64,000 nucleotides of DNA from Isotricha intestinalis. Lineage: Eukaryota; Ciliophora; Litostomatea; Vestibuliferida; Isotrichidae. The notes below the pieces were generated by a model. The model had not been told where the DNA came from, did no database searches, and saw nothing but the letters and a program-made list of their open reading frames with translations. Shown piece after piece: positions 11,850 through 63,447 of the stretch. Numbering within the stretch: the first letter of the stretch is position 1; the number at the start of each line of letters is the position of its first letter. The stretch covers positions 1-64,000 of the forward strand of contig JAJJLU010003478.1 of the NCBI GenBank assembly GCA_023807065.1. The letters run 5' to 3'. The position numbers were made by a program, and so were the translations under genes.

Positions 11850-14291
11850 ATGTTTTATAAAAGGCATAGTAAAACTTTTTCTTCTATTATTGGAAATAAT
11901 AATGGAAACAAAACCCCAGTTTCTCCTAAGAAAAAGTTTAAACTATCAATTAGTACAACTTTATTAGAAAATTATATAAATTACTTGGCAGATACGATAA
12001 AAAAAAGAACTACAGAATTAACATCGTTTAATCCATTAAAAAAGATTGATCCAAATTTATTAATAGATTTAAATGAACAAACATATGAAGCAATATATTA
12101 TATATTATCTAAATTAAATAGAACTTATGAAGAATTATTAATTATTAAAGTTTATTTATCTACTATTCAAAAATTTTTAAGTGTTTTAAATGTTAAACAA
12201 GGAGTTGAACAATTATTATTTTCATTAGCTGTTTTTTTAAAATGTGAAAAAAAACAACAAAATTCAATAGTTTTTAGATATGGTGATCAAGGAAGTAAAT
12301 GTTATATACTTTTAATTGGTAATTTATCTATTTTATTACCTAAAGAAAATAAAGTCAATTTAACATTTTTAGTTTATATTAAGCATTTAATTTTATTATC
12401 ATTAATTTCTGAAAATGAAATATTAACAAAAACAATTTCAACAAATAAATTAATTTTTCCAATCGATGAAGAAGAAATAGAAAACATTATAAATTATATA
12501 AAAAGATGTGTGAATAAGAAAATTCCATATTCTCAGATAAAAATATTAGATTTTGATTTAAGTGAAGTAACAGAAATAATAGAATATTATAATAAAATAA
12601 TAGAAAATATAGTAAATAAGAATAAAAAGCATTATTGTAGTGTAGAAGAATATATAAAATTAACATATTTATATGAAAATGAGAAAAAAGAAAGATTTGA
12701 AAAAGAAAATTTAGTAACAATATATTCATATTTTGAAATAGTAAAAAAAGGTAAAGGAGATATATTTGGTGAGGTAGCTTTACAAAATGAAGATAAAAAA
12801 AGAACAGCAACTATTATTTGTATTGATGATTGTGTTTTTGGTTCTTTATCTAAAAATGCTTATAATAATTGTTTAAAAGAAATTGAAGTTAGAAAAAGAA
12901 GAGCTAATGTTACTTTTATTCTTTCTTTTCCTATTTTCACTGAATTAAGATGGAATGTATTTGAATCAAAATATTTTAATTTTTTCAAATTAGAAAATTT
13001 TAATCATGGAGATATTATTATTCAACAAGGTAGTATTGTTGATAAAGTTTTTTTTGTTAAAGAAGGATTATTTCAATTAAATTCTTTTATATCATCAAAT
13101 GAATTATCTAATATTTTAAAAGAAAAAAGGAAAATTATATTTAAACCAAAAGATAAATATTTTAAAAATGAAAAAAAAAAATTTAAGATTACTATTATTA
13201 ATAATAAAGATATTTTAGGCTTGGAAGATATATGTTTTGAAAATAAATATTTTGTAGATGCAATTTGTATTTCTACTAAAGCTTCTGTTTTTTCTATTAC
13301 TAAAAATATATTATTAGATATTTGTAAAAAAATTCCTGAAATTCAAAAAAAATTAGAAAATATTATTAAGTTTAGAGAAACTATTATTACTGATAGATTA
13401 TTGGAAATTTATAAAAATAATGAAAAAAATTTTGAACAAGAAATTAAAAGAAAAAAAATTAATATTGAAAAAAATCTGACTGAAAAAAATAGTATTTTTG
13501 AAGATGCTTTAAAAGAACCTGAATTAGGAAAGAGAAATAAATTAAAAAGTGCTAAAACCAAATTAATTTTAAGAAAAGGAATTGAAAATATTTTATTATC
13601 TCCTAAAAAGAAAAATTATTTTACCAATAAAAAATTAAATATTCATAACAACAACATTTATAATTTGAATAATAATAATAATTATACTTTTAGAGAAAAA
13701 TTAAGTTTTAGTGATAAAATAAATAATAGAGTTATTTCTTCTTTTTCAAAAAATAAAAAAAGTAGAAATGTAAATATATTTAATTCTCCTACAATTTCAA
13801 GTTATAGAACTTATATAAAATCATCAAATGAAATGTCAAGTAATAAAAAAAGTGATGTCACATCTTTTCAAACTTTTTTATATCCTAAAAGAAATAATAA
13901 AAAATATTTAAAGAAAATAATTGGAAATGATTATGAAGAATATAAACAAAGTTTTAAACAAAAAAAATTTACTAATTTCTTAATAAAAAATAAAAAAATA
14001 ATTTTACAAAGACAAGAAAAAGAAAATGAAAAATCTTCATTTGATAATATTTATTCACCTGTAGATTTATTATTTTATGAAAATAATGTTATAGAAGACA
14101 AAAAAAAAGAAAAAGAAAAAATTCAAAACTCTTTTAATCAAAGAAAAAGAATTCATACTGCAAGTTCTTCTTTATTAAATTATTCAAATTTTAATAAAAA
14201 TAATATTATTAAAAATGGAAATAGTATAGATAATTATACTAGAAATTATAATTGTAGTATAGATAAAAAGTATCATAATACTATAAATTAA
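11850..14291 (+). CDS. cyclic nucleotide-binding domain protein, two cNBDs
   Basis: 813 residues. The first cNBD begins near residue 118 (LAVFLKCEKKQQNSIVFRYG, then GSKCYILLIGNLSIL). A helical insertion of roughly 125 residues follows, and the domain resumes with a well kept phosphate-binding cassette at about residue 302 (GDIFGEVALQNEDKKRTATI; the FGE...R-TA pattern is what binds the cyclic phosphate). The second cNBD (about 355-505: FPIFTELRWNVF, HGDIIIQQGSIVDKVFFVKEG, KDILGLEDICFENKYFVDA) lacks the cassette arginine and is probably structural. The C-terminal 300 residues are Lys/Asn/Ser-rich and disordered. There is no kinase or channel domain, so it is likely a cAMP/cGMP-responsive scaffold of a type common in ciliates. 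Confidence 0.8.
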   Translation: MFYKRHSKTFSSIIGNNNGNKTPVSPKKKFKLSISTTLLENYINYLADTIKKRTTELTSFNPLKKIDPNLLIDLNEQTYEAIYYILSKLNRTYEELLIIKVYLSTIQKFLSVLNVKQGVEQLLFSLAVFLKCEKKQQNSIVFRYGDQGSKCYILLIGNLSILLPKENKVNLTFLVYIKHLILLSLISENEILTKTISTNKLIFPIDEEEIENIINYIKRCVNKKIPYSQIKILDFDLSEVTEIIEYYNKIIENIVNKNKKHYCSVEEYIKLTYLYENEKKERFEKENLVTIYSYFEIVKKGKGDIFGEVALQNEDKKRTATIICIDDCVFGSLSKNAYNNCLKEIEVRKRRANVTFILSFPIFTELRWNVFESKYFNFFKLENFNHGDIIIQQGSIVDKVFFVKEGLFQLNSFISSNELSNILKEKRKIIFKPKDKYFKNEKKKFKITIINNKDILGLEDICFENKYFVDAICISTKASVFSITKNILLDICKKIPEIQKKLENIIKFRETIITDRLLEIYKNNEKNFEQEIKRKKINIEKNLTEKNSIFEDALKEPELGKRNKLKSAKTKLILRKGIENILLSPKKKNYFTNKKLNIHNNNIYNLNNNNNYTFREKLSFSDKINNRVISSFSKNKKSRNVNIFNSPTISSYRTYIKSSNEMSSNKKSDVTSFQTFLYPKRNNKKYLKKIIGNDYEEYKQSFKQKKFTNFLIKNKKIILQRQEKENEKSSFDNIYSPVDLLFYENNVIEDKKKEKEKIQNSFNQRKRIHTASSSLLNYSNFNKNNIIKNGNSIDNYTRNYNCSIDKKYHNTIN

Positions 14292-16096: not shown

Positions 16097-18811
16097 ATGG
16101 CGAATCAAATTGGGGCTCTTTTATCAAAAGATATTCAATTAATGTCAAGACAAAAAGGGACAATAATATGTCAAATAATAACACCATTATTATGTCTTCT
16201 TTTCATATATATAGTAAAAGTCATAGTAGAAACTCAAATATCAAAAACTCCATTTGGTTTAAAATTATCTATTCCAATACTATTTAATATTCCAATATAT
16301 TCAAAATTAGAATATGCAAATCAAATTTTAACAATAACTTCATGTGATGAATGGTATATATATGATTTTAATAAAAGTATTAATGAAGAATCAAAAAATT
16401 TTTTCAAGGAAACAATGTCAAAAGATAATATTCTTAAATATTATTGTAGAAATAATTTTGCTGAAGACAAATTAAGTCCTTATTTCCAATATATAAATGA
16501 TTTAAAAAAAAATGAAAATGAAACAAATAATATAAACGCATTTTTGTTTAATAGATTAGAAGATTTAAATAAATTAGATTATAATACTTTAATAAATGAT
16601 TCAATAAAAAATATATTACCTGATGGAGCAATAACAATAAATGAAATGAATAATGAAAATTTTTCATATAAAATTCAAATAAATGATAATAGATTACCAT
16701 ATTATCATAGATCAAATGGAGTGACTCAATTTTATTTATATAATGAAAACACTAAAAATTATACTTTTTATCCAAATGTTTTAAATGGAATGTTATGGGG
16801 AACAGATTTATTTAATAAAGCTTATATTAAGAAATTATTTCCTAAAGTTAAATTAATTTCAGGTGTTCAATTAATGCCAATTAAATTAGATGATAATGAA
16901 GAAAATATTCAAAGAATAATAAATTTAGCAGGAAGCACTTTTTATCCTATGGCTATTTCACTTTTAATGCCTTTATTTATGTATTCTATTGTTATTGAAA
17001 AAGAAAGAAAATTAATAGAAATTATGAAAATAAATGGTTTAAAAATGATTAATTATTGGATAAGTAATTTTATTTTTAATTATTCATTATATACAATAAC
17101 AATGATAATATTTATATTAGTAGGAGCTCTAATATTAAAATTAACAATATTTATAAAAACACATTGGTTACTTCTTTTCTTAACATTTATAAGTTGGGGT
17201 TTTTGTCAAATAGGTTTAGCATTTTTTTTTCAAAGCTTCATTACAAATGCAAGAAGTGCAACAATAGTAGGATATATGGTTTCTCTTTGGACTACTTTAA
17301 TTGCAGTTTCTTTAAATTTTTCTATATATGATTTACCTGAACCTTATCCTTTTTGGCTTCTTTGTTATCCTACTTTTTCTCTTTGTAGAATCTTCTATTA
17401 TATGACTTATCATTGTGGTTATGAAAAATGTATTGATAGTTTATATGGGTTAAGTCAAGAATTTGTTGATTGCTTTTATTTATTATTTTTTACAGGATTT
17501 ATTTATATGATTCTTGGAATATATTTCTATGAAGTTATTCCTCAAGAATATGGAGTTAGGAAACATCCTTTATTTTTTTTAGAAGGAATTTTAAAAAGCT
17601 TTCAAAAAAGTAATGATAAATTAAATTATATTGATTTAAAAGATTCTAAAAAAATAGTAAATAATAAAATAGAAGAAGAAGAAAATAATGATAATAATAA
17701 TGAAAAGAATATGAATTCATTATCAATAGATGAAGAAATAAGAGTAGAATATGAGAAAGTATCATATTTAACAAATCCATTAAATATGGAAGAATTAAAA
17801 TTATATCCCTTAGTATCAGATCACTTGACAAAAATATATGAGAATAATAAAAACAAGAAAAAGGGTAAAAAATCATTAGATAACTTAACATTATGTTTAA
17901 ATAAAAATGAAATATTTGGATTACTTGGTCCAAATGGAGCAGGAAAAACAACATTTTTTTCTTTATTAACAGGAATTTATGAACCAACATCAGGAAATGC
18001 ATTTATAAATGGAAATTCAATAAGAACAAATATAAATAAAGTACAAGAATTAATTGGTTATTGTCCTCAATTTGATTTATTATGGGATGATTTAACAGTA
18101 AGAGAGCATTTAATATTTTATTCATTAATAAAAAATGTGCCTTTAAATGTTTTAAATGAAAATATAAATAAGACATTATCAAATATAAAATTGGACAAAT
18201 ATAAAAATTTTTTAGTAAAAGAATTAAGTGGAGGAATGAAAAGAAGACTAACATTAGGAATATCATTAGTTGGAAATCCATCTATTGTATTTTTAGATGA
18301 ACCAACAACTGGATTAGATCCTGAAAATAAAAGACAAATATGGGAAATTTTATCTAATTGTAAAGAAAATAAATGTATGATATTAACAACTCATTTAATG
18401 GATGAAGCTGAAATTTTAAGTGATAGAATTGGTATTATTGTTCATGGAAATTTAAAGTGCTTAGGTAGTCAATTTAAATTAAAAAAAATTCATGGTAAAG
18501 GATTTAAATTATGTATTAATTTAATTCCTTTCTCTTTAATTAATGATAATAATTTAAGAAATGAAAATGAATTTATTGAAGAAAGAAAAGATAATGTTGT
18601 TAAATTTGTTAAAGAAATTTTTAATGGATGCTTTTTAGTCGATAATTATAAAAATACTTTAATTTTTGAAATTTCTAATAAGGAATTCGACGCTGAAGTT
18701 TTGTTTAATAAAATTGAAGAAAAAAAAAATCAACTTTATATTACGAATTGGGCTGTTTCACAAGTTAGTTTGGAAGATATTTTTATTAGGTTAACTGAAA
18801 ATGAGCTTTAA
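16097..18811 (+). CDS. ABCA-type half transporter, 904 aa
   Basis: One membrane domain plus one nucleotide-binding domain in ABCA order. TM1 is near residues 22-45 (IITPLLCLLFIYIVKVIV). A large luminal/extracellular loop follows (about 50-280), then a cluster of TM helices (about 280-480). The NBD has Walker A GPNGAGKTT (about 612), signature LSGGMKRRLTLG (about 710), Walker B SIVFLDEPTTGLD (about 730) and H-loop ILTTHLMDEAE (about 765). All catalytic residues are intact, so it should hydrolyse ATP and move lipids or related substrates. Full ABCA proteins carry two such halves; this one must dimerise. The C-terminus ends with the ABCA-typical VSLEDIFIRLTENEL. Confidence 0.93.
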   Translation: MANQIGALLSKDIQLMSRQKGTIICQIITPLLCLLFIYIVKVIVETQISKTPFGLKLSIPILFNIPIYSKLEYANQILTITSCDEWYIYDFNKSINEESKNFFKETMSKDNILKYYCRNNFAEDKLSPYFQYINDLKKNENETNNINAFLFNRLEDLNKLDYNTLINDSIKNILPDGAITINEMNNENFSYKIQINDNRLPYYHRSNGVTQFYLYNENTKNYTFYPNVLNGMLWGTDLFNKAYIKKLFPKVKLISGVQLMPIKLDDNEENIQRIINLAGSTFYPMAISLLMPLFMYSIVIEKERKLIEIMKINGLKMINYWISNFIFNYSLYTITMIIFILVGALILKLTIFIKTHWLLLFLTFISWGFCQIGLAFFFQSFITNARSATIVGYMVSLWTTLIAVSLNFSIYDLPEPYPFWLLCYPTFSLCRIFYYMTYHCGYEKCIDSLYGLSQEFVDCFYLLFFTGFIYMILGIYFYEVIPQEYGVRKHPLFFLEGILKSFQKSNDKLNYIDLKDSKKIVNNKIEEEENNDNNNEKNMNSLSIDEEIRVEYEKVSYLTNPLNMEELKLYPLVSDHLTKIYENNKNKKKGKKSLDNLTLCLNKNEIFGLLGPNGAGKTTFFSLLTGIYEPTSGNAFINGNSIRTNINKVQELIGYCPQFDLLWDDLTVREHLIFYSLIKNVPLNVLNENINKTLSNIKLDKYKNFLVKELSGGMKRRLTLGISLVGNPSIVFLDEPTTGLDPENKRQIWEILSNCKENKCMILTTHLMDEAEILSDRIGIIVHGNLKCLGSQFKLKKIHGKGFKLCINLIPFSLINDNNLRNENEFIEERKDNVVKFVKEIFNGCFLVDNYKNTLIFEISNKEFDAEVLFNKIEEKKNQLYITNWAVSQVSLEDIFIRLTENEL

Positions 18812-18988: not shown

Positions 18989-20038
18989 ATGAAAAATATT
19001 TTGTTTTTTATTTTCTTTTTTGTAATTTTTTTTATGAATAAAGTTAAAGGAAGAATAATAGAAATTCCAATAAATTATACTGAATTTAATCACCCAATAA
19101 TAAATTTATGTTTAGGAACTCCAAAACAATGTCTTCCATTTAAATTATCTTTAAATCTTGATATAACTTATGTAATTGATTATAATATTTTTGGTTTAGG
19201 ATTTGAAAAAGAAAAATCTCATACTTTGAGTAAAATAGGTTCAAATGTAAATTTCACTGATAGAAATTATAATCTTCAAGGTTTTGAAGTTTATGATATT
19301 TTACAAACTGAAAAAAATTTTTTGAAAAAAGGTTTTTTTAAATTTTACATTGTTAATAAAGGTTTTAAATATACTAATTACTGTGGAGTAGTTGGATTAA
19401 AAAATAGTAGTTTTTATTCTTTTATTAATTTTATTAATTTATATGGAACTGGAAATAAAAATAATATTATTGAAATCAAAACTAATAATGAAGGAAATAA
19501 AGGTTCAATTATTTTTGGGAATAATATTTCAAAAGATTATAATAAAATTAATTATGTTAATGAAACAAATCCTTTTGAAATTTTTTTAAATAAAGTTATT
19601 TTATTTAATGATAATTACCCTAAATTTACAATTTTAAATGATATAAATGAAAGTGTTTTATTAAGCCCTGAACATAATAAAATTTATTGTCCTGAAAAAT
19701 TTTTAAATTATTTAATGGATAATTTGTTTAATAAATTTGATAAGAAAGAAACTAAAAGTTGTTTAAAAAAAGAAGAAAAAGGAGTGTATAAATATTTATT
19801 ATGTAATTCTTTTTTATTAAAAGAATCAATATATATTTATTTCATTTTTGGAAAATGGAATGCTAAGTTTCTTCTTAATGATTTATTCACTCAAGTTAAT
19901 GATAAACTTTTAATATTTAATATAATGAATTTGGTTGATGAAGATAAATGGATTTTTGGAAATTATTTTTTTAAATTTTATGATTTCATTTATGAAAGTA
20001 AAACTCCTACATTAAGATTAAAAAAAATAAAAAAATAA
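18989..20038 (+). CDS. secreted pepsin-fold (A1) protein without catalytic aspartates
   Basis: 349 residues. A strong signal peptide (about 1-22) is followed by pepsin-like landmarks: INLCLGTPKQCLPFKLSLNLD (the strand entering the first active site), GVVGLKNSSFYSFI, GSIIFGN (the family's GELxxGG strand), and a tail DKWIFGNYFFKFYDFIYE like the WxLGDxFLRxYYxxFD end of pepsins. The first D-T-G is replaced (NLDITYVIDY has no DTG) and the second site reads ILNDINESVLLSP, where DTG has become DIN. A working A1 protease needs both aspartates in DTG/DSG, so this is probably a binding or structural pseudoprotease. A second member of the family lies at 30424. Confidence 0.7.
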   Translation: MKNILFFIFFFVIFFMNKVKGRIIEIPINYTEFNHPIINLCLGTPKQCLPFKLSLNLDITYVIDYNIFGLGFEKEKSHTLSKIGSNVNFTDRNYNLQGFEVYDILQTEKNFLKKGFFKFYIVNKGFKYTNYCGVVGLKNSSFYSFINFINLYGTGNKNNIIEIKTNNEGNKGSIIFGNNISKDYNKINYVNETNPFEIFLNKVILFNDNYPKFTILNDINESVLLSPEHNKIYCPEKFLNYLMDNLFNKFDKKETKSCLKKEEKGVYKYLLCNSFLLKESIYIYFIFGKWNAKFLLNDLFTQVNDKLLIFNIMNLVDEDKWIFGNYFFKFYDFIYESKTPTLRLKKIKK

Positions 20039-34042: not shown

Positions 34043-37000
34043 TTACATATAATAATTATCAAAATCTTCATCTTGATTTTTTCCTTTCTTTCCATAAATT
34101 TTATATTCTGGCATATTTTCCATATTAACATCACTAGGAGGCTTTATAACATCATCATCTTCTTCTTCTTCTTCTTCTTCATAATAAGAAGATTCATCTT
34201 CATATTTATAATCTTTTTTCTTTTTCTTTTCATCACTTTTTTCACTTTTAGGTTGTGTTTTTTTTTTGATTTTTTCTTTCTTCTTTTTTTTCTTTTTTTT
34301 TACATCCTCCCATTCTTCTTCTAATAATTTTTCTTCTTCTTCTTTTTTCTCTCTTTCTTTTTTTCTCATTTCTTTTTCTTCTTCAATTAATTTTAATAAT
34401 TCTTCTTCTTCTTCTTTTTTTTTTTTTTCTTCTTCTTCTTTTATTCTATCTTCTTCTTCTTTTAATCTTCGCTCTTCAGAATTTTTAAAATGTTTATATT
34501 TTTCTATTTTTTCACTTTCTTTTATTTTTCTCTGAATTTCTTCATCATCAATTCCCATTGAACGTAAAATTTCTTTTTCTTTTTTTTTTCTTTCTAAAAT
34601 TGCTTCTTCATCTTTTTTCGAAATTTGAAAAACTATTTTTCCAGCTGATACAATTTCTTTTTTATAATTATTTAAAAATTCTTTTTTTAAATTTGAAACT
34701 CCTAAAAAACATAAATATAAATTATTATCATTATCTGAAAAAACCCAAACAACACTTCCATCAATTAAACTTTCAAAATCATCAGAAGGAGAAAATATAT
34801 TAATAGGATAAGATAAAATATCTTCTCCTTTAATTTCTCCTTCAGAATTTAATAAAAAGCAATTACAAATTTCATGTTCTTCATCAATTTCTTCATCAAT
34901 TAAATCAACTTTATCAATAATATATTTTTTATCATTTGTAAATTTTTTTGTTTCACTAATCATAACAAAAATATTTTTACCATATTTAGCTTGTTTAATA
35001 CAATTAATTAAATCACCATCTCTGATTAAATTTACTTTTTCAATTTTTAATTCAGAATTAAATATAATACAAGATAATTCATTAATTTTATTTATTTCTC
35101 CTCCATCAACACAAGGAATTCTACTATAAATTAAAGCAAATTTATCATTTCTTATTTTTGTGATATCTCCTATTCTTCCACTTGTTTGACCTTTTAAATT
35201 TGAAGGAATTGATCCTTTCACTATATTACATTTTATATATTCATTCCTTAAATTCATTGTCATATGTTCACTTTGCTTAAAATTTTCTAAATTTTTCAAA
35301 TAGTCATATTCATTAAATTCAAAATCATTATTTGTATTTATTAAATCTTGATTACTTTTTATTCTGTTTTGTAATGGGAAATAATGTTCAAATTTTATTT
35401 CTGGTTGGTAAATATTATTTTTATTAATATTTTTATTATTATTTAAAGAACCTTTACTATTATTACTATTAAAACTACCTTGAAATTTACTTGATTTGTA
35501 ACTATCACTGAATTTATTTTTTGTATCTAATTTCAATTTTACTTTAGGATCAATTCTCAAAAGATTAATATTAGCAGGAGCTGCATCTCCTAAAGAACAT
35601 TGGAAAAAATAATTTCCATTATAAACACATCTTTGACATAAAGAATGAGTAGTTGACCAACTTTGAACTAAATGAACTTGAGTACCATCTTCACTATAAG
35701 TAACAACAGTATCACCGTTGTTATCTTCTCTTTCTCCTTCTCTAGTTAAACCAAAATGATTCATATATGAAAATACACATAATATTCTTCCATAACCATA
35801 ACTTAATCTTCCACTTATTGGATTAAACATTGCATTCATTCCAAATTCAATATTATCTGTTTCTGGGTTAAAAAATAATAATTGATTTTTTTCTGGTTTT
35901 AATGGATTTTGACCATTTGACATTATATTATTTCTCCAAATCATTTCACCTTTTGAATTTATATATTGAATAAATAATAAATTACTATCACGAGTATCAC
36001 CCATTAATATTATTAATCCATTATTTGTTGATGCTATATCATATGGTATTCCATTATCATATTTATATAATGGATTTTTAAATTGATCTAAAAATGAATT
36101 TTCTGTGTTATCTAATATTATTTTAAATACTTTCATTTGATTATCACATAAATCATTAAATGATATATAAAAGCCTAATTCTTTTATTAATGGTGATATA
36201 GGAGCTATTGAATGAGAAAAATGAACTTCATTAATTCTTTTAACTTTAAATAGATTACCTAAATTTACTATTTTAATTTGATTTTCATCTATTAATTCAG
36301 TATCTTCTTTATCATCATCATTTCCATAAATTTCTAATTTTTTAGTGATAGTATAATTAACTTCATAAAAAACCGTAAAATTACAATTTAAATTATATTC
36401 TCCAGGTATATTATAAGAATGAGTAACTTCAAATTGATTACTAATAATATCACTATCATCGCCAAAATCCCAAAAACATTGTGTAATATTAGGATAATCT
36501 AATTTAAATTGAATATTAAAACCTACTGGAAAGGCTGTATCAATAATTCCTAAATCTAAATTTATTTCTTGGTCAATTATACATCTTGTACTAAACATTG
36601 AATAAGGAGAATTCATTGATGTTGTTCTTGTACTAATTGAAACTTTATCATTAGTTATATTTAAACAATATGCTTCTTTTCTATAAATATCATTAAAATT
36701 TAAAGTTCCAACTAATAATCTATTATAATTTTTTAATTTTTGATTTAATTCATAATTACTATTAATAACATGATTGATTTTATCCTTTTCTTTCCCATCG
36801 AATAAATTACTATCTTGTTTAAAATTCATACATATTAAATCATACAATCCACTTTCACTAACATCAGCTAAAAATGCACCATCCATTAAAGTTAAAAAAT
36901 ATAATCTTTGTTCATTATTATTTCCTACATAATTTAACATTTCTTCAATTTCTTCTTTATAAGGTAATCTCCATCCTTTAGGACAAGCTGAAACAGAATC

Positions 37001-38800
37001 TAAAAAAGAATTTTCACCATGTATTCCAGGTCCTTTTCCTCTTACTAAATTAATGGTTTCATTTTTGTAATTTTTATAATTTTTCAAATCACGATCTAAC
37101 CAAATTTGATTCCCTATTTTTATTGGTTGACCATATGAAATTCCATTTATTATTTCTTCTTCTCCATATAAAATTTCATCTATTACTAAAACTTTTTTTT
37201 CTAAATGAAAACTTCGACATGAAAATAATATTATATGTAATTCTATTAAATATTCTCCTTTTTCATTAAATATATGTGATGTTATTAATTTATCTGATGT
37301 TTTTTTTTTTTTTTTACAATTTGGATCATTAAAATTCCATTTAAATGTTGTTATATTATTTAATTGAGGAACTTCAAAATATGCTTTGTAACCTTGTTCT
37401 ATTACCAAAGGACATTTAAACATTATATCTAAAACTTTATTTGCTATTAATTTACATCTTAATGTTTTTTTATTTTGATATGTATCTAATTTATATATTA
37501 ATTTATCTACTTTTTCATTTTTGTTTTCTTCTTCTAAAACTTGGAAAATTGATTCTGGATTTGTTTCAAATATTAATTCTATATCTTTTTTTGTATATTT
37601 AATTTTCGAGTGTAAAGTTGGTGTTTTTACTCTCTTTTTATCATTAATTTTATTAGAATTAATTTTAGAGAATTTTTTATTTTTATTTCTTTTAATTTTA
37701 TTTTTAATATCTTTTTCAAAATCTGTTTTTTTTTTATTTTCATTTTCACTTTCATCACTTTCACTAATAATTCCTTTATCAATTTCCCAATTTTTTTGTT
37801 CATTCATCATAAAATCAAATCCATCAACTTTATTTTTTTTTTCTCCTTTATTTCCTTCTTCATCTCTATTAAAACAAACACAGAAAAATTCCCAAGCTTG
37901 ATTTTTATAACCATCAAATTCATTATTACATTTATCAGAAGTAATATAATCATAATCTTCATTCATATTTAATAATTTTTCATGAGTTAAAATAATTTTA
38001 GCTCTTTCATTACTTCCAGCAAACTTAATTAATTCTTCATAATCTTTTTTACTTGGAATTTTCCATCCAAGTGGGATTTGAACTTTAGGATTATTAACAT
38101 CAGGTTCTACAAAAAAATCATAAGTTAACCAAGTTTGATTATAAATTTGAATAGGAATTCCATAATTATTTCCATTATATATTTCATCTTCATATCCTAA
38201 TTTAAATGGTTTTGAAATGTCTGGTTTTTTAGGATTATATGGTTTTTCTTTTTCTCTATGACGAAATGGTTTTTCTTTTTGTAAAGGACGAATAAATTGC
38301 ATTCTTCCTTTTCTTTTCTTATTCTCTTTTTCTAATTGTTCTAATTCTTCATCTACATCTTGATAATAAAGACCTAATTTTCTCTTTGCTCTTTTTTGAC
38401 TTGATGTATCTGATTCTGATGATGATTCTTCTTCTCCTATTCTCTTCTTTTTAATTTCATTTTGATAATTTTTAAATTCTTCGTCTTGTTGTTCTTTTGA
38501 TATATTTTCCATATATTTTCGAGGAAAATTAAATGAACTTGATTTATTTGATTTTTCAGATGAAATTTTTGAATTTTTTGAGCCTAATTGTTTTGATGAT
38601 TTTTGAGATAATTCTTTCTCTTCTTCTTCTCCTTCTGGTGTCTTTTTTGACCTTTTTTTATTTCCTTTTCGTATTTGGATTGGATCTGTCTTCTCCGAAT
38701 TCGTTATTTCCTTTTCTTCTTCTTCATTTAAATTTGATGAGTCGTCAGGAGATATGTTTGGTTTTGAATTCGGTTTTTCGTGGGTGGTTCCACATCCCAT
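34043..38800 (-). CDS. tandem FISUMP-PKD protein with acylatable N-terminus and acidic coiled-coil tail, 1585 aa
   Basis: Start MGCGTTHEK fits N-myristoylation (Gly2, Thr6) plus Cys3 palmitoylation. After a charged linker comes a first FISUMP-like domain (about 210-335: YGIPIQIYNQTWLTYDF, then IPLGWKIPSKKDYEELIKFAG) and a PKD-like sandwich (about 440-545: TTFKWNFNDPN, SHIFNEKGEYLIELHI). The module repeats: FISUMP (about 550-690: YGQPIKIGNQIWLDRDL, SACPKGWRLPYKEEIEEMLN) and PKD (about 735-815: TQCFWDFGDDSDIISN, HSYNIPGEYNLNC). Residues about 850-1310 are strand-rich and propeller-like (SNLLFIQYINSKGEMIWRNN). The tail (about 1410-1560) is a Glu/Lys coiled coil. FISUMP matches are to the known GNQVWMAENL and CPAGWHVPT signatures. 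There is no signal peptide, so the bacterial-type surface modules appear cytosolic and membrane-tethered. Function unknown. Confidence 0.8.
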   Translation of the reverse strand: MGCGTTHEKPNSKPNISPDDSSNLNEEEEKEITNSEKTDPIQIRKGNKKRSKKTPEGEEEEKELSQKSSKQLGSKNSKISSEKSNKSSSFNFPRKYMENISKEQQDEEFKNYQNEIKKKRIGEEESSSESDTSSQKRAKRKLGLYYQDVDEELEQLEKENKKRKGRMQFIRPLQKEKPFRHREKEKPYNPKKPDISKPFKLGYEDEIYNGNNYGIPIQIYNQTWLTYDFFVEPDVNNPKVQIPLGWKIPSKKDYEELIKFAGSNERAKIILTHEKLLNMNEDYDYITSDKCNNEFDGYKNQAWEFFCVCFNRDEEGNKGEKKNKVDGFDFMMNEQKNWEIDKGIISESDESENENKKKTDFEKDIKNKIKRNKNKKFSKINSNKINDKKRVKTPTLHSKIKYTKKDIELIFETNPESIFQVLEEENKNEKVDKLIYKLDTYQNKKTLRCKLIANKVLDIMFKCPLVIEQGYKAYFEVPQLNNITTFKWNFNDPNCKKKKKTSDKLITSHIFNEKGEYLIELHIILFSCRSFHLEKKVLVIDEILYGEEEIINGISYGQPIKIGNQIWLDRDLKNYKNYKNETINLVRGKGPGIHGENSFLDSVSACPKGWRLPYKEEIEEMLNYVGNNNEQRLYFLTLMDGAFLADVSESGLYDLICMNFKQDSNLFDGKEKDKINHVINSNYELNQKLKNYNRLLVGTLNFNDIYRKEAYCLNITNDKVSISTRTTSMNSPYSMFSTRCIIDQEINLDLGIIDTAFPVGFNIQFKLDYPNITQCFWDFGDDSDIISNQFEVTHSYNIPGEYNLNCNFTVFYEVNYTITKKLEIYGNDDDKEDTELIDENQIKIVNLGNLFKVKRINEVHFSHSIAPISPLIKELGFYISFNDLCDNQMKVFKIILDNTENSFLDQFKNPLYKYDNGIPYDIASTNNGLIILMGDTRDSNLLFIQYINSKGEMIWRNNIMSNGQNPLKPEKNQLLFFNPETDNIEFGMNAMFNPISGRLSYGYGRILCVFSYMNHFGLTREGEREDNNGDTVVTYSEDGTQVHLVQSWSTTHSLCQRCVYNGNYFFQCSLGDAAPANINLLRIDPKVKLKLDTKNKFSDSYKSSKFQGSFNSNNSKGSLNNNKNINKNNIYQPEIKFEHYFPLQNRIKSNQDLINTNNDFEFNEYDYLKNLENFKQSEHMTMNLRNEYIKCNIVKGSIPSNLKGQTSGRIGDITKIRNDKFALIYSRIPCVDGGEINKINELSCIIFNSELKIEKVNLIRDGDLINCIKQAKYGKNIFVMISETKKFTNDKKYIIDKVDLIDEEIDEEHEICNCFLLNSEGEIKGEDILSYPINIFSPSDDFESLIDGSVVWVFSDNDNNLYLCFLGVSNLKKEFLNNYKKEIVSAGKIVFQISKKDEEAILERKKKEKEILRSMGIDDEEIQRKIKESEKIEKYKHFKNSEERRLKEEEDRIKEEEEKKKKEEEEELLKLIEEEKEMRKKEREKKEEEEKLLEEEWEDVKKKKKKKKEKIKKKTQPKSEKSDEKKKKKDYKYEDESSYYEEEEEEEDDDVIKPPSDVNMENMPEYKIYGKKGKNQDEDFDNYYM

Positions 38801-44815: not shown

Positions 44816-47356
44816 TTAATAAGGATAATATTGTCTTAGTGAAAGAATATTAATCATTAAAGCATCTAAAGTAAAAGATTCTCCTAAATATCTACATTGT
44901 TCTTTGATGAATTCATTTTCTTCAATAGTGAAAAATTTATGATATGTATTAACAAATAATTCAATTGTGTTATAAGTCATATAAGTTTGAGGATAAGATT
45001 TATAATAAGTAGTCATAACAAATTTAATGATATCAAAAGGATTTAATATTCTAAAATGTAATATTGCTCCATAAATATTAAATAAATTTGTAATTGTTAA
45101 TTGACCTTTAAAAGAATGAAAATTTTGAATTAAATGTAACATAAATTCAATTTCTTTTTCTGTCAAATTATTTCCTAATGTTTTTAAAAAAGGAATTAAA
45201 TCTTTTTCTATATCTATTGTTATTTTATCATCTTCTGTTTTTGTATATCTATAAACACAAGTCCTTATCATTTCTTGTAATGGTTTATATGTTAATTCTA
45301 ATTCATTTTTTTTTTCTTCGTCTATAAATATTTGATCTTCTATATTTTCTTGTTTATTCATTTTCATATCAAAATATATTTTTTTAAAATTTTGGAAAAT
45401 ACTCTCTGCTATTTTTCCACTATGATATAAATGATGATTTATCATTTTTTTAACGCATTTTTCATTTTTTCTCATTTCAATAGAATCAATAATACAATAC
45501 CATTTTAAAGTAAGAGCAGTAATAAAACCTTGAATAAAAAAATATATTATACTAACAGAAATAAATAATATTAAACCTAATTTATTATATTTATTTCTAA
45601 TAACACTTAAATGTTTTCCAAAAGTTATTACTCCCCAAGCAATGAAAATAAGACAAATTGATTGAATTATATTAATTATTAAATGAAAACCTGTATTTCC
45701 AAAAATTATTAAATTTTCATATAATGAAGAAGGTCTTTGATGAAAATGAATATGTAAATTATTTGGTTTATTCATTTTTTCCATTTCTTTTTCATTTTGA
45801 ATCAAATTTAATAAATATTTTGGATGAGAAGAACTTTGTAAAGAAGAATTTGAATTATAATCAATATCTTGATAATTTGCAATGTTATCTTGATTTATTG
45901 ATTCTATTACTTTTCTATATATTGATTTTGTATATAAAAAAAGTAAGAAAGTTAATATTATTCCTATTATTGGAATTATTAATAAAGAAAATAATAATGT
46001 TTTTACTTTTGCTGATGCTAAAAAAACATTCCAAAACATTATTGTTATTAATAAAAATATCCAAGATGTCCAAGAAAATTTAAAGAATAATCTTAATTTT
46101 TCAATAAGTGTTTTTTTTAAATAAATACTAAAATTCATTTCTTTTCTAAATAAACTTGGTTTAAAAACAGGAAATAAAGGAATGAAGAAAAATCTTTTTA
46201 AAATTAAATATTCAAATGTTTCAATAATATCATTAGTGTTAGAATCTTTATAATTATTATTATTAGGATCATATTTTTGATTAGCAATATTATCGAATTT
46301 ATGTCTTAATTCAGTAAATGAATTTGCTTTTTTTTCTAATTTTTCCCAATTTTTTGTAATGAAATAACTTATTATAATTATATATATTGACAATAATATA
46401 AAAGTAATTATATATATTGCTATTCCTGAAATAAAATATTCCCAATTTAAAGGTATTGAATCAAAATTTCCATATGTGTAAATTAATAATACTATTATAA
46501 AACATATTATTAAAAACATTAATTGATTCGATAAACTTGCTATACATTTTGAAAAGAATTTATTTATGTTTTTTAATTTATTGTATATTACACGAAGAAT
46601 TAAATATGAGAAACCAAATATTATTATTGTACTTATTGACCATATTTTTGTCTTTGTAGATTTTTCTATATCTAATGCAGGGTTATGAACTTTGTATATT
46701 AAACTTTTTTGATTTTTTGTGTTTTCTTCAGGTGCTGATGTTTTCAAAGAGATAGTATTATTTATTGATGTTATTTTTTCTTTTTCTTCTTCTTCTTCTT
46801 CTTCTTTTTCTTTTTTGTTTTTTTCTTCTTCTTCTTTTTTTCTTTTTTCCTCCTCTTCTTTTTCCTTTTTTTCTTCTTCTTCTTTTTTTTTCTTTTCCTC
46901 TTCTTCTTCTTTTTTTCTCTTTTCCTCTTCTTCTTCTTTTTTTCTCTTTTCCTCTTCTTCTTCTTTTCTCTTTTCTTCCTCTTCTTTTTTTCTTTTTTCT
47001 TCTTCTTCTTTTTTTCTCTTTTCCTCTTCTTCCTTTAACTTAGCTAGCCTTTCAGCTTCTTTAATAGCTTGTTCCTTAGCTTCTTCTTCTCTTTCCTTAT
47101 TAAAAATATCGAAATTATTATCAGCAAGAACAGCATTATCACCACTTTCATTAGAATCATCATTTAACTCTTGACTTTGATCTTCATCTGGTATATCTAA
47201 ATCTTCAAAAACACTTCCTCCGACTTCACCATTTTTTTCTTGTGAAGGTTCCAATTGAGTGTTTGTTGCTTTTGATAATAATGATTTAGACTTGTTTAAT
47301 AAGAGTAATGATATTATGATAAAACAAATTTTTTGAAGAAAAAAAAATTTTTTCAT
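44816..47356 (-). CDS. MLO-like multi-pass membrane protein with Lys/Glu-repeat lumenal domain, 846 aa
   Basis: Signal peptide about 1-25, then an acidic region and a long KKEEEE-type charged repeat (about 95-195). About seven TM helices follow between residues 235 and 640. MLO-family landmarks: RKEMNFSIYLKKTLIEKLRL, FSWTSWIFLLITIMFWNVF (MLO: SWxLWxFVVxFLLLNV), TLLFSLLIIPIIGIILTFLL with a following KS.YRKVIES, and HQRPSSLYENLIIFGNTGFH (MLO: FWFxxPxxxLxLIHFxLFQNAF). The C-terminal 170 residues look like a degenerate EF-hand pair (TEDDKITIDIEKDLIPFLKT, LTEKEIEFMLHLIQNF). Plant MLOs are calmodulin-binding and reported to conduct Ca2+; a Ca2+-linked role here is inference. The extended lumenal repeat is not typical of MLO proteins. 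Confidence 0.55.
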   Translation of the reverse strand: MKKFFFLQKICFIIISLLLLNKSKSLLSKATNTQLEPSQEKNGEVGGSVFEDLDIPDEDQSQELNDDSNESGDNAVLADNNFDIFNKEREEEAKEQAIKEAERLAKLKEEEEKRKKEEEEKRKKEEEEKRKEEEEEKRKKEEEEEKRKKEEEEEKKKKEEEEKKEKEEEEKRKKEEEEKNKKEKEEEEEEEKEKITSINNTISLKTSAPEENTKNQKSLIYKVHNPALDIEKSTKTKIWSISTIIIFGFSYLILRVIYNKLKNINKFFSKCIASLSNQLMFLIICFIIVLLIYTYGNFDSIPLNWEYFISGIAIYIITFILLSIYIIIISYFITKNWEKLEKKANSFTELRHKFDNIANQKYDPNNNNYKDSNTNDIIETFEYLILKRFFFIPLFPVFKPSLFRKEMNFSIYLKKTLIEKLRLFFKFSWTSWIFLLITIMFWNVFLASAKVKTLLFSLLIIPIIGIILTFLLFLYTKSIYRKVIESINQDNIANYQDIDYNSNSSLQSSSHPKYLLNLIQNEKEMEKMNKPNNLHIHFHQRPSSLYENLIIFGNTGFHLIINIIQSICLIFIAWGVITFGKHLSVIRNKYNKLGLILFISVSIIYFFIQGFITALTLKWYCIIDSIEMRKNEKCVKKMINHHLYHSGKIAESIFQNFKKIYFDMKMNKQENIEDQIFIDEEKKNELELTYKPLQEMIRTCVYRYTKTEDDKITIDIEKDLIPFLKTLGNNLTEKEIEFMLHLIQNFHSFKGQLTITNLFNIYGAILHFRILNPFDIIKFVMTTYYKSYPQTYMTYNTIELFVNTYHKFFTIEENEFIKEQCRYLGESFTLDALMINILSLRQYYPY
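46784..47038. repeat. in-frame charged tandem repeat (Lys/Glu codons)
   Basis: A purine-only tract on the minus strand encoding seven- to nine-residue units such as EEEEKRKK, in the lumenal part of the MLO-like protein. Units vary in length and in Arg/Lys/Gly-free composition, as in expanding codon repeats. Plus-strand open frames here (Phe/Ser/Leu-rich) are artefacts of this tract. Confidence 0.75.
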
Positions 47357-48070: not shown

Positions 48071-50893
48071 ATGGGAAGTTCATCAGTGAAAGGAACTAAA
48101 AGAAAATCCTTAATATTAAATATTCAAACATCAGTAAATAAGAAAGAATCAAAAAATTCAATTTCTGGAAAAAATAAATTAAATTTAACAAAAACAGCAT
48201 CTTCAAATTCATTAAGTAAAACAAGGAAAAGTTCTTCTTCATTAGTAACAAATATTTTATCATATGAAAAAAACATAATATCAAAATTAACAATAGAAAC
48301 AAATATTAATTTCAAAAATGAAAAAGAAGATTATAAAATAATAAATACATCTTTATCAAATCATTATTTATTTAAATATGTAGATAATGATTCATTAAAG
48401 AAATTAATAAATAAATTAATAAAATGTAAATGTTCAAAAGGAACAAAAGTATATGATAAAAATTTAGATGACGCAGAATATTTTTATATATTAACAAAAG
48501 GAAAAATGCATTATAATGCATTAATAAATAAAGAAGATAAAATAAAAGAATATCAAGATTTAAATATTAATAAAGGATCTTGTTTTGGTGATTATGAAAT
48601 TATAAATGATATTTGTAGATTATGTAGTGTTGTTTCTGATGAAGAATGTATTTTTTATTGTTTAAAAAAAAATGATTTGTTAGAGGTTTTAGAAAATGTT
48701 AGAAAAAAAAATTTATCTAACATTGAAAAATTTATTAATGAAAATTATCCTTTTTTAAATAATTATCCAGAAGCAAAAAAATTTTTAATTTATGATTGTA
48801 TTACAATATATAATTTTAATCAAGCTGAAATTTTAATTTCAAATTCTTTTGATGAAATGATTAATAATAATATATTTTTAATTTCAAAAGGTGAAATTGA
48901 TACTATTTATAAACATGAAATTGCAAAAGTTTTAAGAAAAGGAGATATTATTGGTCATCGAGAATTAATTTTAAATGATGGTTTTTTAAGAAATATTTAT
49001 TTAGCTACTAAAACTGATGATTGTGAATTATATTCTATTTCATATAATTCAATAATTAATTTTTTAAAAAGAAATTTTTTCATTAATGATCTTTTATTTT
49101 TTGTTTTTTGTTTATGTTGGAAAAAATCAGAATTTTTAAATGGAATTGATGTAAATTCATTATATAAAATTTTTCCTTTTTTCAAAATGGAAAGTTATGG
49201 ACCGAATGAAATTATATTTAAAAAAGGAGAATATTTAACAGAAGAAAATATTGTAGTTATTGAAGGAAATATATTTTGTGAAAATAAACAAACTTATGAA
49301 GCAGTTAGAAATGATATATTATATGAAAAAGAATTAGTTTTTGGATCTAATGCTATTTTAGTTATGAATGATTTAATTTCTTTTCCTGAATGCATTTTAT
49401 TAAGATGTCCAAGAGAGAAATATAAAAATATTTTAGGAGGAAAATCTTTAAGTGATATTGTTCATTCAAATACTAAAAAAAAAACAGCTCATACTGTTGT
49501 TATTGATTTTTTAAAACATGTGAATTGTTATAATTCATCAAAAATAAAAATAAATGAATTAGAAAAATATATTAATTTAGAAAAATTTCAAAGTAAAGTT
49601 CCAATAATAAATCAAGGTTCAAAAGATTTAAGTAAAATATATATGATAAAAACAGGATATGTAGATATATATATAAATAATAAATATATAAGAACTTTAT
49701 CAATGAATTCTCCTTTTGGATTTAAATCAATATTATCTGGAAGTAAAATTAGAACTGCTTCTGCAATTGCAAATTCATATGTTGAAGTGTATTCTATTGA
49801 TTATAATGCTTTTGATAAATATGTTTTAAAAGATAATCCTTCAATCGTTCAATTTTTAAAATATAAAATTAGTTTAGAAGATGAAACTGTTGAATTAGAA
49901 GATTTAGATAATATTAGATTATTAGGGAAAGGAAGTTTTGGTTTTGTATCTTTAGTAAGAAGTAAAAAGACAAAAAATTTATATGCAATAAAATCAATTC
50001 CCTTAAAGAAAATAATGCAATTAGATATGTATGAATGTATAAAAAATGAAAGAAATGCATTAAGAATGTTAGATCATAATTTTATATTAAAACAAGTGAA
50101 GACATTAAAAGATTCAGAAAACATATTTTTTTTAAACGAATACATAAAGGGAAAAACATTAAATAAAATTATAAAAGATTTAGGTAATTTGAATAAATCA
50201 CAATCAATATTTTTTTCAGCATCAATAATATTAGCAATAGAATATATGCATTCAAATAAATTAATTCACAGAGATATAAAGCCAGAAAATATAATGGTAA
50301 GTGAGACAGGATACATAAAATTAATAGATTTTGGTACAGTGAAAGAAACAAGTAATTTAAATGGTAGAACTCATACTTCAATTGGTACTCCTCATTATAT
50401 GGCTCCTGAAGTTATTAGAGGAGATTCTTATGATTGTAAAGTCGATTATTGGTCTATTGGAGTTTGCATTTATGAATTTATTTGTGGAAAAAAACCTTTC
50501 GGAGATTCTTTCAAAGATCCTGTTGAAATTTATAAATCTGTTGAAAATGATAAAATTGTCTTCCCTAATTTTATTAAAGATAAAGATTTTATCTTTTTAA
50601 TTAATTCTATGCTTGAAAAAGATGAAAAAAAAAGAAAATTTGGAAGTGAAATTAAATCCATGAAGTGGTTTAAAGATTTTGATTTTCAAAGTTTATGTGA
50701 TATGAATGCTCAAATTCCTATTAAAGTTGTTGTTAGTGAAAGTGATGATAAAGGAAATTCTAGTAATAGGAATGGAAGTGATTATTTAAGTGAACTTAAA
50801 AATTTGATAAGTAAATATAAGAAAGGGAAAGAAAATATTATTTTAACTGATGCTCAAATTTCCAAAGGAGAAGATTGGTTGAAAAATTTTTAA
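48071..50893 (+). CDS. cyclic-nucleotide-dependent protein kinase (PKG type), four cNBDs plus kinase, 940 aa
   Basis: Four cNBD-like units precede the kinase: about 98-215 (HYLFKYVDNDSLKKL, KGSCFGDYEIINDICR), 222-345 (KGDIIGHRELILNDGFLR), 360-465 (FKKGEYLTEENIVVIEGNIF, degenerate) and 480-605 (NSPFGFKSILSGSKIRTASA, with the R-TA element). The kinase domain is about 613-880: LLGKGSFGFVSLV, YAIKSIPLKK, LIHRDIKPENIMVS, KLIDFGTVKE, HTSIGTPHYMAPEVIRGDS, VDYWSIGVCIYEFICGKKPF. The layout of several N-terminal cNBDs with a C-terminal AGC kinase is that of apicomplexan and ciliate PKGs. The N-terminus MGSSSVKGTKRKS could be myristoylated, though Val at position 6 is not ideal. It probably mediates cGMP signalling for motility or secretion (inference). 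Confidence 0.9.
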   Translation: MGSSSVKGTKRKSLILNIQTSVNKKESKNSISGKNKLNLTKTASSNSLSKTRKSSSSLVTNILSYEKNIISKLTIETNINFKNEKEDYKIINTSLSNHYLFKYVDNDSLKKLINKLIKCKCSKGTKVYDKNLDDAEYFYILTKGKMHYNALINKEDKIKEYQDLNINKGSCFGDYEIINDICRLCSVVSDEECIFYCLKKNDLLEVLENVRKKNLSNIEKFINENYPFLNNYPEAKKFLIYDCITIYNFNQAEILISNSFDEMINNNIFLISKGEIDTIYKHEIAKVLRKGDIIGHRELILNDGFLRNIYLATKTDDCELYSISYNSIINFLKRNFFINDLLFFVFCLCWKKSEFLNGIDVNSLYKIFPFFKMESYGPNEIIFKKGEYLTEENIVVIEGNIFCENKQTYEAVRNDILYEKELVFGSNAILVMNDLISFPECILLRCPREKYKNILGGKSLSDIVHSNTKKKTAHTVVIDFLKHVNCYNSSKIKINELEKYINLEKFQSKVPIINQGSKDLSKIYMIKTGYVDIYINNKYIRTLSMNSPFGFKSILSGSKIRTASAIANSYVEVYSIDYNAFDKYVLKDNPSIVQFLKYKISLEDETVELEDLDNIRLLGKGSFGFVSLVRSKKTKNLYAIKSIPLKKIMQLDMYECIKNERNALRMLDHNFILKQVKTLKDSENIFFLNEYIKGKTLNKIIKDLGNLNKSQSIFFSASIILAIEYMHSNKLIHRDIKPENIMVSETGYIKLIDFGTVKETSNLNGRTHTSIGTPHYMAPEVIRGDSYDCKVDYWSIGVCIYEFICGKKPFGDSFKDPVEIYKSVENDKIVFPNFIKDKDFIFLINSMLEKDEKKRKFGSEIKSMKWFKDFDFQSLCDMNAQIPIKVVVSESDDKGNSSNRNGSDYLSELKNLISKYKKGKENIILTDAQISKGEDWLKNF

Positions 50894-62238: not shown

Positions 62239-62397
62239 AAAGTTTATTAATTTTTTAATGGTATATATGGTATATAATCAAAATTTATTATATATTGGAA
62301 AAATTTTATTTTATATTAAAAGTTAATAAATTAAATTATTTAATTTAAGTTTGAAATAAAAATAAATATATTAAAAAAATTATTATTGATATTTAAA

Positions 62398-63447
62398 ATG
62401 GAAGCAGACATTCAAAGACAAATTCAATTATTTACATTATCAAATTCTTTACCAAAAATAGATATTCACGCTCATTTAAATGGTAGTATAAGAAAAAAGA
62501 CATTATTAGAAAATTTATCAATAAGTGATAAAAATGAATTAGAGAAATTATTATCAAAAATGGATTTTCCAAATGCAATGAAATTTTTTAAAATATCATC
62601 AAAAATAATAACAGATTTATCAATAGTGAGAAGAATAACAAAAGAAATGTTAGAAGATTGGAATAAGCATAATGTAATATATTTAGAAATAAGAACATCT
62701 TTAAAAGAAAAAGCAGAAATTTTTACAAAAGAAGAATATTTAAAAGCAGTTTTAGAAGAAATCAATAATTTTAATAATGAAAAAAAAATGATAACAAGAT
62801 TAATAATAAGTTTAGATAGAGAAAAAGAATTAAATGATTATGAAGAAACATATAATATATATAAAAATTTGAATGATGAAAATTTAAAAAAATTAATAGT
62901 TGGAATTGATTATTCAGGTAATGAAATAAATGAAAAACATAAATATGAAGAATTAATTCCTTATTTAGAAAAATTTAGAAATGAAGGTTTAAAAATAACA
63001 ATTCATATGGGTGAAAATCCTAATTATCAAATTTTTCCTTTTGATAAATTTATTCCTGATAGAGTTTCTCATTGTTATTTTTTAAAAGAAGAACATTATT
63101 TAGAAATTTTAAAAAGAAATATTCATATTGAAGTTTGTCCTACTTGTTCATATAAAATTACTCATCAAACTGATTTTTCTAAAATTCCTTTAAGAAATTT
63201 TTGGAATAAAAAAATTGTTGATATGAATGGAAATGAAATTATTTTTAAAAATATTTCTATTAATACTGATGATACTATGCTTATTTTAAGTGATGTGAGT
63301 CAAGAATATTATGAAGTTAGTGTTAATTTTAAATGGGATGTTAATGATGTTAAAAATATTCTTTTAAATACTATTGATCATATTTTTGAAAAAGATAATG
63401 ATATTAAAAATCAATTAAGAGAAAAAGTTAATAATTTTTTTGAATGA
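62398..63447 (+). CDS. adenosine deaminase-like (ADAL/MAPDA-type) hydrolase, 349 aa
   Basis: Metal and substrate motifs in order: KIDIHAHLNGSIRKKTLLEN (zinc HxH and the HLNGS typical of ADAL rather than ADA1), VIYLEIRTSLKE, ITIHMGENPNYQ (HxGE with catalytic Glu), DRVSHCYFLKEEH (His), EVCPTCSYKI and SINTDDTMLILS (zinc Asp-Asp). All catalytic residues are present. ADAL enzymes deaminate N6-methyl-AMP to IMP; classical ADA acts on adenosine. HLNGSI favours ADAL, but I cannot exclude adenosine as substrate. The ATG at 62398 is used; the frame is open slightly upstream without another ATG. Confidence 0.88.
   Translation: MEADIQRQIQLFTLSNSLPKIDIHAHLNGSIRKKTLLENLSISDKNELEKLLSKMDFPNAMKFFKISSKIITDLSIVRRITKEMLEDWNKHNVIYLEIRTSLKEKAEIFTKEEYLKAVLEEINNFNNEKKMITRLIISLDREKELNDYEETYNIYKNLNDENLKKLIVGIDYSGNEINEKHKYEELIPYLEKFRNEGLKITIHMGENPNYQIFPFDKFIPDRVSHCYFLKEEHYLEILKRNIHIEVCPTCSYKITHQTDFSKIPLRNFWNKKIVDMNGNEIIFKNISINTDDTMLILSDVSQEYYEVSVNFKWDVNDVKNILLNTIDHIFEKDNDIKNQLREKVNNFFE

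Follow-up and report, generated by a model that had tools for sequence, protein, structure and literature searches.

The window, by which we mean the whole stretch of 64,000 nucleotides analysed here, holds on its minus strand a single-exon reading frame of 1585 aa (34043-38800) that closes with a TAA stop. The GC content of the window is 14-24% (in 2-kb steps), and the neighbouring genes code for proteins of common eukaryotic types, including a HECT ligase, a calpain, a PP2C phosphatase, an aspartyl protease and a kinase with cyclic-nucleotide-binding domains. The codon use of the 1585-aa gene correlates with that of the rest at r = 0.994, the highest value of the 26 ORFs compared, for which the length of the gene is part of the reason. 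P0002, encoded on a separate metagenome contig, is identical to the window protein across the region searched. Given the eukaryotic neighbours, the codon match and P0002, it is therefore very likely that the gene is native and not an artefact, as the original prediction had held when it took the match in codon use with neighbouring genes to speak against contamination. Nothing was found when the window was scanned for Rfam families and tRNAs, or the remainder of the contig for Rfam families; a bacterial promoter scan at the locus gave 46 promoters where 57 were expected, and no telomere repeats were seen in the stretches of the contig ends that were read.

Several other features of the window may be recorded here. 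The stop codons of the 26 ORFs are TAA in 22 cases, TAG in four and TGA in none; an ORF outside this tally (62386-63447) closes with TGA, and a further stop comes soon after it; TGA may be rare, or may not act as a stop. Two plus-strand genes, at 11850-14291 and 48071-50893, encode cyclic-nucleotide-binding proteins, the product of the second being a PKG-like kinase in which three stretches match cNMP. A 48-base tandem array (46774-47036) lies within the ORF at 44816-47356, the protein of which matches CDC45 weakly (E 4e-5, below the cut-off). An ABC transporter ORF at 16097-18811 is followed by an ORF of 349 aa without a Pfam match at 18989-20038, both on the plus strand, and the two could belong to a single gene with an intron between them.

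The domains of the 1585-aa protein are arranged in the order FISUMP1, PKD1, FISUMP2, PKD2, beta-propeller, charged helix and short tail; all coordinates that follow refer to the minus strand. Behind a Met-Gly-Cys start (residues 1-3; 38792-38800), which is a candidate site of N-myristoylation/palmitoylation, lies a charged low-complexity leader (residues 4-158; 38327-38791), and then a short conserved segment, K-E-x-x-F-x-H-R, ahead of FISUMP1 (residues 159-200; 38201-38326; mean identity 0.37 in an 18-member alignment of the family). The main part of FISUMP1 (residues 201-312; 37865-38200), located with PF09603, TIGR02145 and hhalign, is separated by a low-complexity insert within the domain (residues 313-435; 37496-37864; mean identity 0.21), modelled with a pLDDT below 50 at residues 315-359 and 372-401, from its final strand (RCKLI), which together with PKD1 takes up residues 436-542 (37175-37495). 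FISUMP2 (residues 544-744; 36569-37171), located by the same means, has FSTRCI at its end and is followed by PKD2 (residues 745-830; 36311-36568), the propeller (residues 836-1380; 34661-36295) with a low-complexity loop at about residues 1090-1190, a charged Lys/Glu helical tail recognized from its sequence (residues 1381-1545; 34166-34660; mean identity 0.22) and, finally, a C-terminal N-Y-Y-M with the TAA stop (34043-34057).

The whole protein passes the cut-offs of the PKD profiles PF18911 (44.4 against 27 bits) and PF00801 (36.7 against 23.5 bits); with the domains taken alone, PKD2 passes PF18911 (27.6 against 27 bits) and PKD1, at 21.3 bits, fails. The predicted structure contains two copies of the PKD sandwich fold and a propeller in the form of a closed ring of four-stranded blades. 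Searched against PDB sequences, the family profile gave PKD matches, the rest having the appearance of low-complexity or chance matches, and the propeller profile gave no match. The PKD and propeller folds are both predicted and matched; FISUMP is recognized by sequence only. The tandem FISUMP-PKD architecture, originally proposed as two modules followed by a propeller, is real, with the PKD cut-off passed, the folds predicted and a FISUMP that is divergent but matched in 18 of 18 family members. Among known systems, the PKD domains of the bacterial ColG and ColH are close; these are parts of secreted collagenases, whereas the window protein lacks a secretion signal. The VPS10/SorCS receptors also combine a propeller with PKD, but they are transmembrane receptors with a reversed domain order and a larger propeller, and the window protein, which falls below the cut-off, is not classed with them. 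The propeller of one remote relative, P0052 (residues 323-513), matches Sortilin-Vps10 at E 2.3e-4, again below the cut-off, so that a distant tie of this propeller to those of the VPS10 type is possible.

The first protein search, which scored the 7990 candidates sharing most words with the query, yielded 43 proteins with identities between 35 and 100%, P0002 included, and later searches added P0045 to P0053. In 29 of the 38 near-full-length relatives (at least 1400 aa), the contig exceeds the coding sequence by no more than 600 bases, which suggests that their genes sit on gene-sized chromosomes and, in turn, suggests that they come from rumen ciliates; a rumen ciliate host, as initially envisaged, is thus plausible. 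A study of such organisms describes gene-sized chromosomes (~1500 bp) in Dasytricha and Ophryoscolecidae, chromosomes of ~13 kb in Isotricha and, for the trichostome Muniziella, the standard code and a preference for TAA (PMC11316547). The window lies on a contig of 79 kb in an assembly of 57 Mb and 2153 contigs, and its source may accordingly be a trichostome whose chromosomes are larger. No relatives were found in the viral collection scanned, nor in the plasmid collection searched with P0053. The PF09603 profile gave 0 matches on the genome at E 0.001, in a search that also misses the 1585-aa gene itself and is therefore no guide to the number of copies. The literature searched contained no paper joining FISUMP with ciliates, and none of the FISUMP-related papers among the matches listed concerns ciliates by its title.

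The protein has two conserved ends. In a tally over 53 sequences, in which the window protein and the near-identical P0002 are both counted, 43 begin with MG; 41 of these have MGC, the start that the original prediction had read as acylatable, and two (P0043 and P0046) have Gly2 but lack Cys3. Amongst the 17 other members of the 18-member alignment, M1, G2 and C3 are retained at 1.00, 1.00 and 0.94, whereas the mean identity of residues 4-158 in the same alignment is 11%. At the other end, an aromatic-x-Met C-terminus, (Y/F)-x-M, occurs in 24 of the 53 sequences, including the remote P0043-P0046; it is absent from 29, several of which look cut short or frame-shifted. This pattern, with both ends kept while the adjoining sequence diverges, is among the evidence for the best explanation. 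In agreement with the original prediction, no signal peptide was found in the window protein, and no membrane span either. Under the explanation that we favour, the protein would be a tether, anchored by lipid in a membrane and linking it to something inside the cell, for example the ciliate cortex or cilium, a reading that we consider evenly poised between right and wrong and prefer to both of the alternatives considered below.

According to the first of these, the M-G-C start goes unacylated in most species and is kept for some other reason, and the protein either is soluble or attaches to the cytoskeleton by its propeller and tail. PS00008, the PROSITE myristoylation pattern, fits 16 of the 43 MG-starting sequences, the window protein among them; the 27 that miss it, in 22 cases because of Val or Ile at residue 6, speak for this alternative, as does the absence of Cys3 from two of the 43. 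It is difficult, however, to reconcile with the retention of exactly M-G-C beside sequence that cannot be aligned, and we regard it as unlikely.

The relatives that bear on the second alternative emerged from a query with the propeller only, which gave seven matches (E at most 10; 6310 candidates). Five of them, P0047-P0051, look like fragments of the acylated-type family, a call for which the sequences of P0047 and P0050 were read and those of P0048 and P0049 judged by start and end only, while for P0051 the alignment gives identities of 39 to 54%. The other two, P0052 and P0053, both from short contigs, each carry a single FISUMP-like and a single PKD-like domain ahead of the same propeller. 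They share with the window protein the order of these parts but differ from it in having a single module and a pair of cysteines in the PKD-like domain (in both), and in lacking the MGC start and the charged tail. P0052 gives no FISUMP or PKD profile match, the matches of P0053 are weak (PF09603 E 0.013, TIGR02145 E 0.0027) and bacterial FISUMP against P0053 reached only 83.2%, so that the link of the two to the family rests mainly on alignment and the shared propeller. The N-terminus of P0053 is hydrophobic (19-residue mean 2.16), as is the C-terminal tail of P0052 (1.94); since a similar value at the C-terminus of the acylated-type P0037 (1.95) is probably a frame artefact, the tail of P0052 could be one too. 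Judged from their sequences, P0052 and P0053 look like proteins of a secreted or surface type. At the positions of the cysteine pair, no row of the 44-row alignment of the acylated-type family has Cys in PKD1, and in PKD2 it occurs once, at the second of the two positions, a near-absence that is as expected for a reducing compartment.

It could be supposed that the acylated protein leaves the cell by an unconventional route that depends on acylation, as Leishmania HASPB does, and that FISUMP-PKD would serve as an outward-facing adhesin or lectin. FISUMP and PKD are typical surface modules, and dual-acylation starts can support export. A FISUMP variable protein that belongs to a diversity-generating retroelement is predicted to be a lipoprotein, which would also fit (PMC4159848). 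Against export stand the absence from the family of the PKD cysteine pair of the single-module relatives and the long charged leader, inserts and tail, and we think it distinctly unlikely. The internal tether, with its lipid anchor, is the reading that we retain.

The assignment of FISUMP itself requires some care. The window protein scores 28.6 bits with TIGR02145, below the curated cut-off of 41.65, and 24.9 bits with PF09603, below the curated cut-off of 33.9; the ten bacterial proteins scanned score 108 to 298 bits with the latter. Neither module reaches either cut-off alone: FISUMP1 gives E 0.0028 (18.4 bits) with PF09603 and E 7.4e-4 (20.2 bits) with TIGR02145, and FISUMP2 gives E 1.5e-6 (29.0 bits) and E 3.8e-8 (34.2 bits), respectively. 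By hhalign, the bacterial FISUMP profile aligns with FISUMP1 at 96.6% over only 23 columns, containing the P-x-GW-x-(I/L)P motif, and with FISUMP2 at 98.7% over 37 columns; FISUMP1 and P0053 align at 99.1% over 105 columns. Structure searches aimed at the FISUMP fold returned PKD and Ig-like chains, also from a viral library, and the FISUMP2 profile gave two chance-level matches among PDB sequences. Low scores and short alignments of this kind could indicate convergent tryptophan-rich motifs with no true homology. That is very improbable, however, when the TIGR02145 match in FISUMP2 spans model positions 14-174 of 176, when both models match 18 of the 18 members scanned (E at most 1; best 1.4e-9 for PF09603 and 1.7e-10 for TIGR02145), when P0043 passes the PF09603 cut-off (38.9 against 33.9 bits), and when the FSTRCI end of FISUMP2 aligns with the SVRCIK end of bacterial FISUMP. 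Taken on their sequences, FISUMP1 and FISUMP2 are divergent FISUMP homologues and not members by the curated cut-off. FISUMP2 is also the most conserved of the parts compared (mean identity among relatives ~0.6), and an Lcl_C/DUF1566 profile matches 13 of the 18 members (best E 1.7e-4). In PMC4159848, FISUMP is likened to DUF1566 and said to be targeted by diversity-generating retroelements, and the Mtd variable protein is named as having a fold, that of the C-type lectins, which tolerates such variation; both would fit a putative ligand-binding role for FISUMP.

The bacterial domain (Fib_succ_major, PF09603/TIGR02145; Fibrobacterota and Bacteroidota) carries the motifs IGNQxW, CPxGWRLP and xxRCI, which follow each other as they do here, and multiple copies per protein also occur in bacteria, for example three stretches in locus L003. 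The window protein differs in its big low-complexity inserts, its PKD and propeller partners and its lack of a secretion signal. Of 80 pattern matches examined in a tblastn search from FISUMP2, 20 were confirmed as bacterial loci in this pattern-based sample, 4 from Fibrobacterota and 16 from Bacteroidota by record title. No PKD was detected at E 0.01 in the ten bacterial FISUMP proteins scanned; weak matches below the cut-off in the bacterial set were fibronectin III in L018 and L020 and a DUF5122 beta-propeller in L018. None of the seven propeller matches is labelled as bacterial, in a search that needs shared 5-residue words and carries no organism labels, so that this absence counts for little. 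A tree was built over 146 columns from 20 acylated-type, 2 single-type and 23 bacterial FISUMP domains, the last from 19 of the 20 loci (L014, which scored as L013, was left out, as were additional weaker copies in L004, L008 and L010). Every FISUMP1, FISUMP2 and single-type domain lies opposite the bacterial domains across a long branch (100/100). Five constrained trees were compared on how FISUMP1, FISUMP2, the single-type domains and the bacterial domains branched, and the AU test rejected none (p 0.30 to 0.77); p is highest where FISUMP2 is grouped with bacteria, so that there may have been two acquisitions. An N-Y-G-x-P-like leader, identified by eye, is present in most acylated-type rows and in P0053 but not in P0052 or the bacterial rows.

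As FISUMP appeared outside the family only in Fibrobacterota and Bacteroidota in the material searched, a bacterial source, or old bacterial pedigree, of the domain is likely. A recent transfer from rumen Fibrobacter, which the best tblastn match (a Fibrimonadales protein, 32% identity, E 8e-11) and the four Fibrobacterota loci might recommend, is extremely improbable in the face of the long branch to every bacterial domain sampled, the Bacteroidota majority, the lack of bacterial FISUMP-PKD in those ten proteins and the identity of FISUMP2 to remote relatives (~0.5), which marks the domain as old in the family. Whereas the architecture, the missing secretion signal, the start and the codon use of the original prediction have stood, and a rumen-type ciliate is plausible, its suggestion of contact with Fibrobacter in the rumen as the source is not supported as it was put. 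The existence of the single-module P0052 and P0053 indicates that the 'refitting' it envisaged probably began from an existing FISUMP-PKD-propeller protein.

As a lipid-anchored tether, the protein would be a peripheral scaffold at a membrane of a ciliate that is probably a trichostome from the gut. Its N-terminal Gly-Cys would be acylated and would hold the protein at the cytosolic face of a membrane; the two lectin-like FISUMP-PKD modules and the propeller would form an array of putative binding surfaces; and the charged helix and aromatic-x-Met C-terminus would bind a partner, most likely cytoskeletal. With the two single-module relatives as a guide, the ancestor may have been a secreted-type FISUMP-PKD-propeller protein, in which FISUMP-PKD would have been doubled, the secretion signal and PKD cysteine pair lost and the acylation start gained. 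We put forward only tentatively the wider proposal that an extracellular-type recognition protein of this kind was turned inside out in ciliate evolution, losing its signal peptide and PKD cysteine pair and doubling its binding module, and is now a lipid-anchored, two-ended intracellular tether.

FISUMP is a widespread bacterial domain that is functionally obscure. A conserved eukaryotic FISUMP family, apparently intracellular, that can be compared with secreted-type single-module relatives offers a way to ask what FISUMP binds and how an outward-facing module is reused in the cytosol. Should the ciliate reading hold, the family would represent a conserved, uncharacterized membrane protein of rumen protozoa; should the inside-out reading hold, surface modules of bacteria would here have been put to a new kind of use within the cell.
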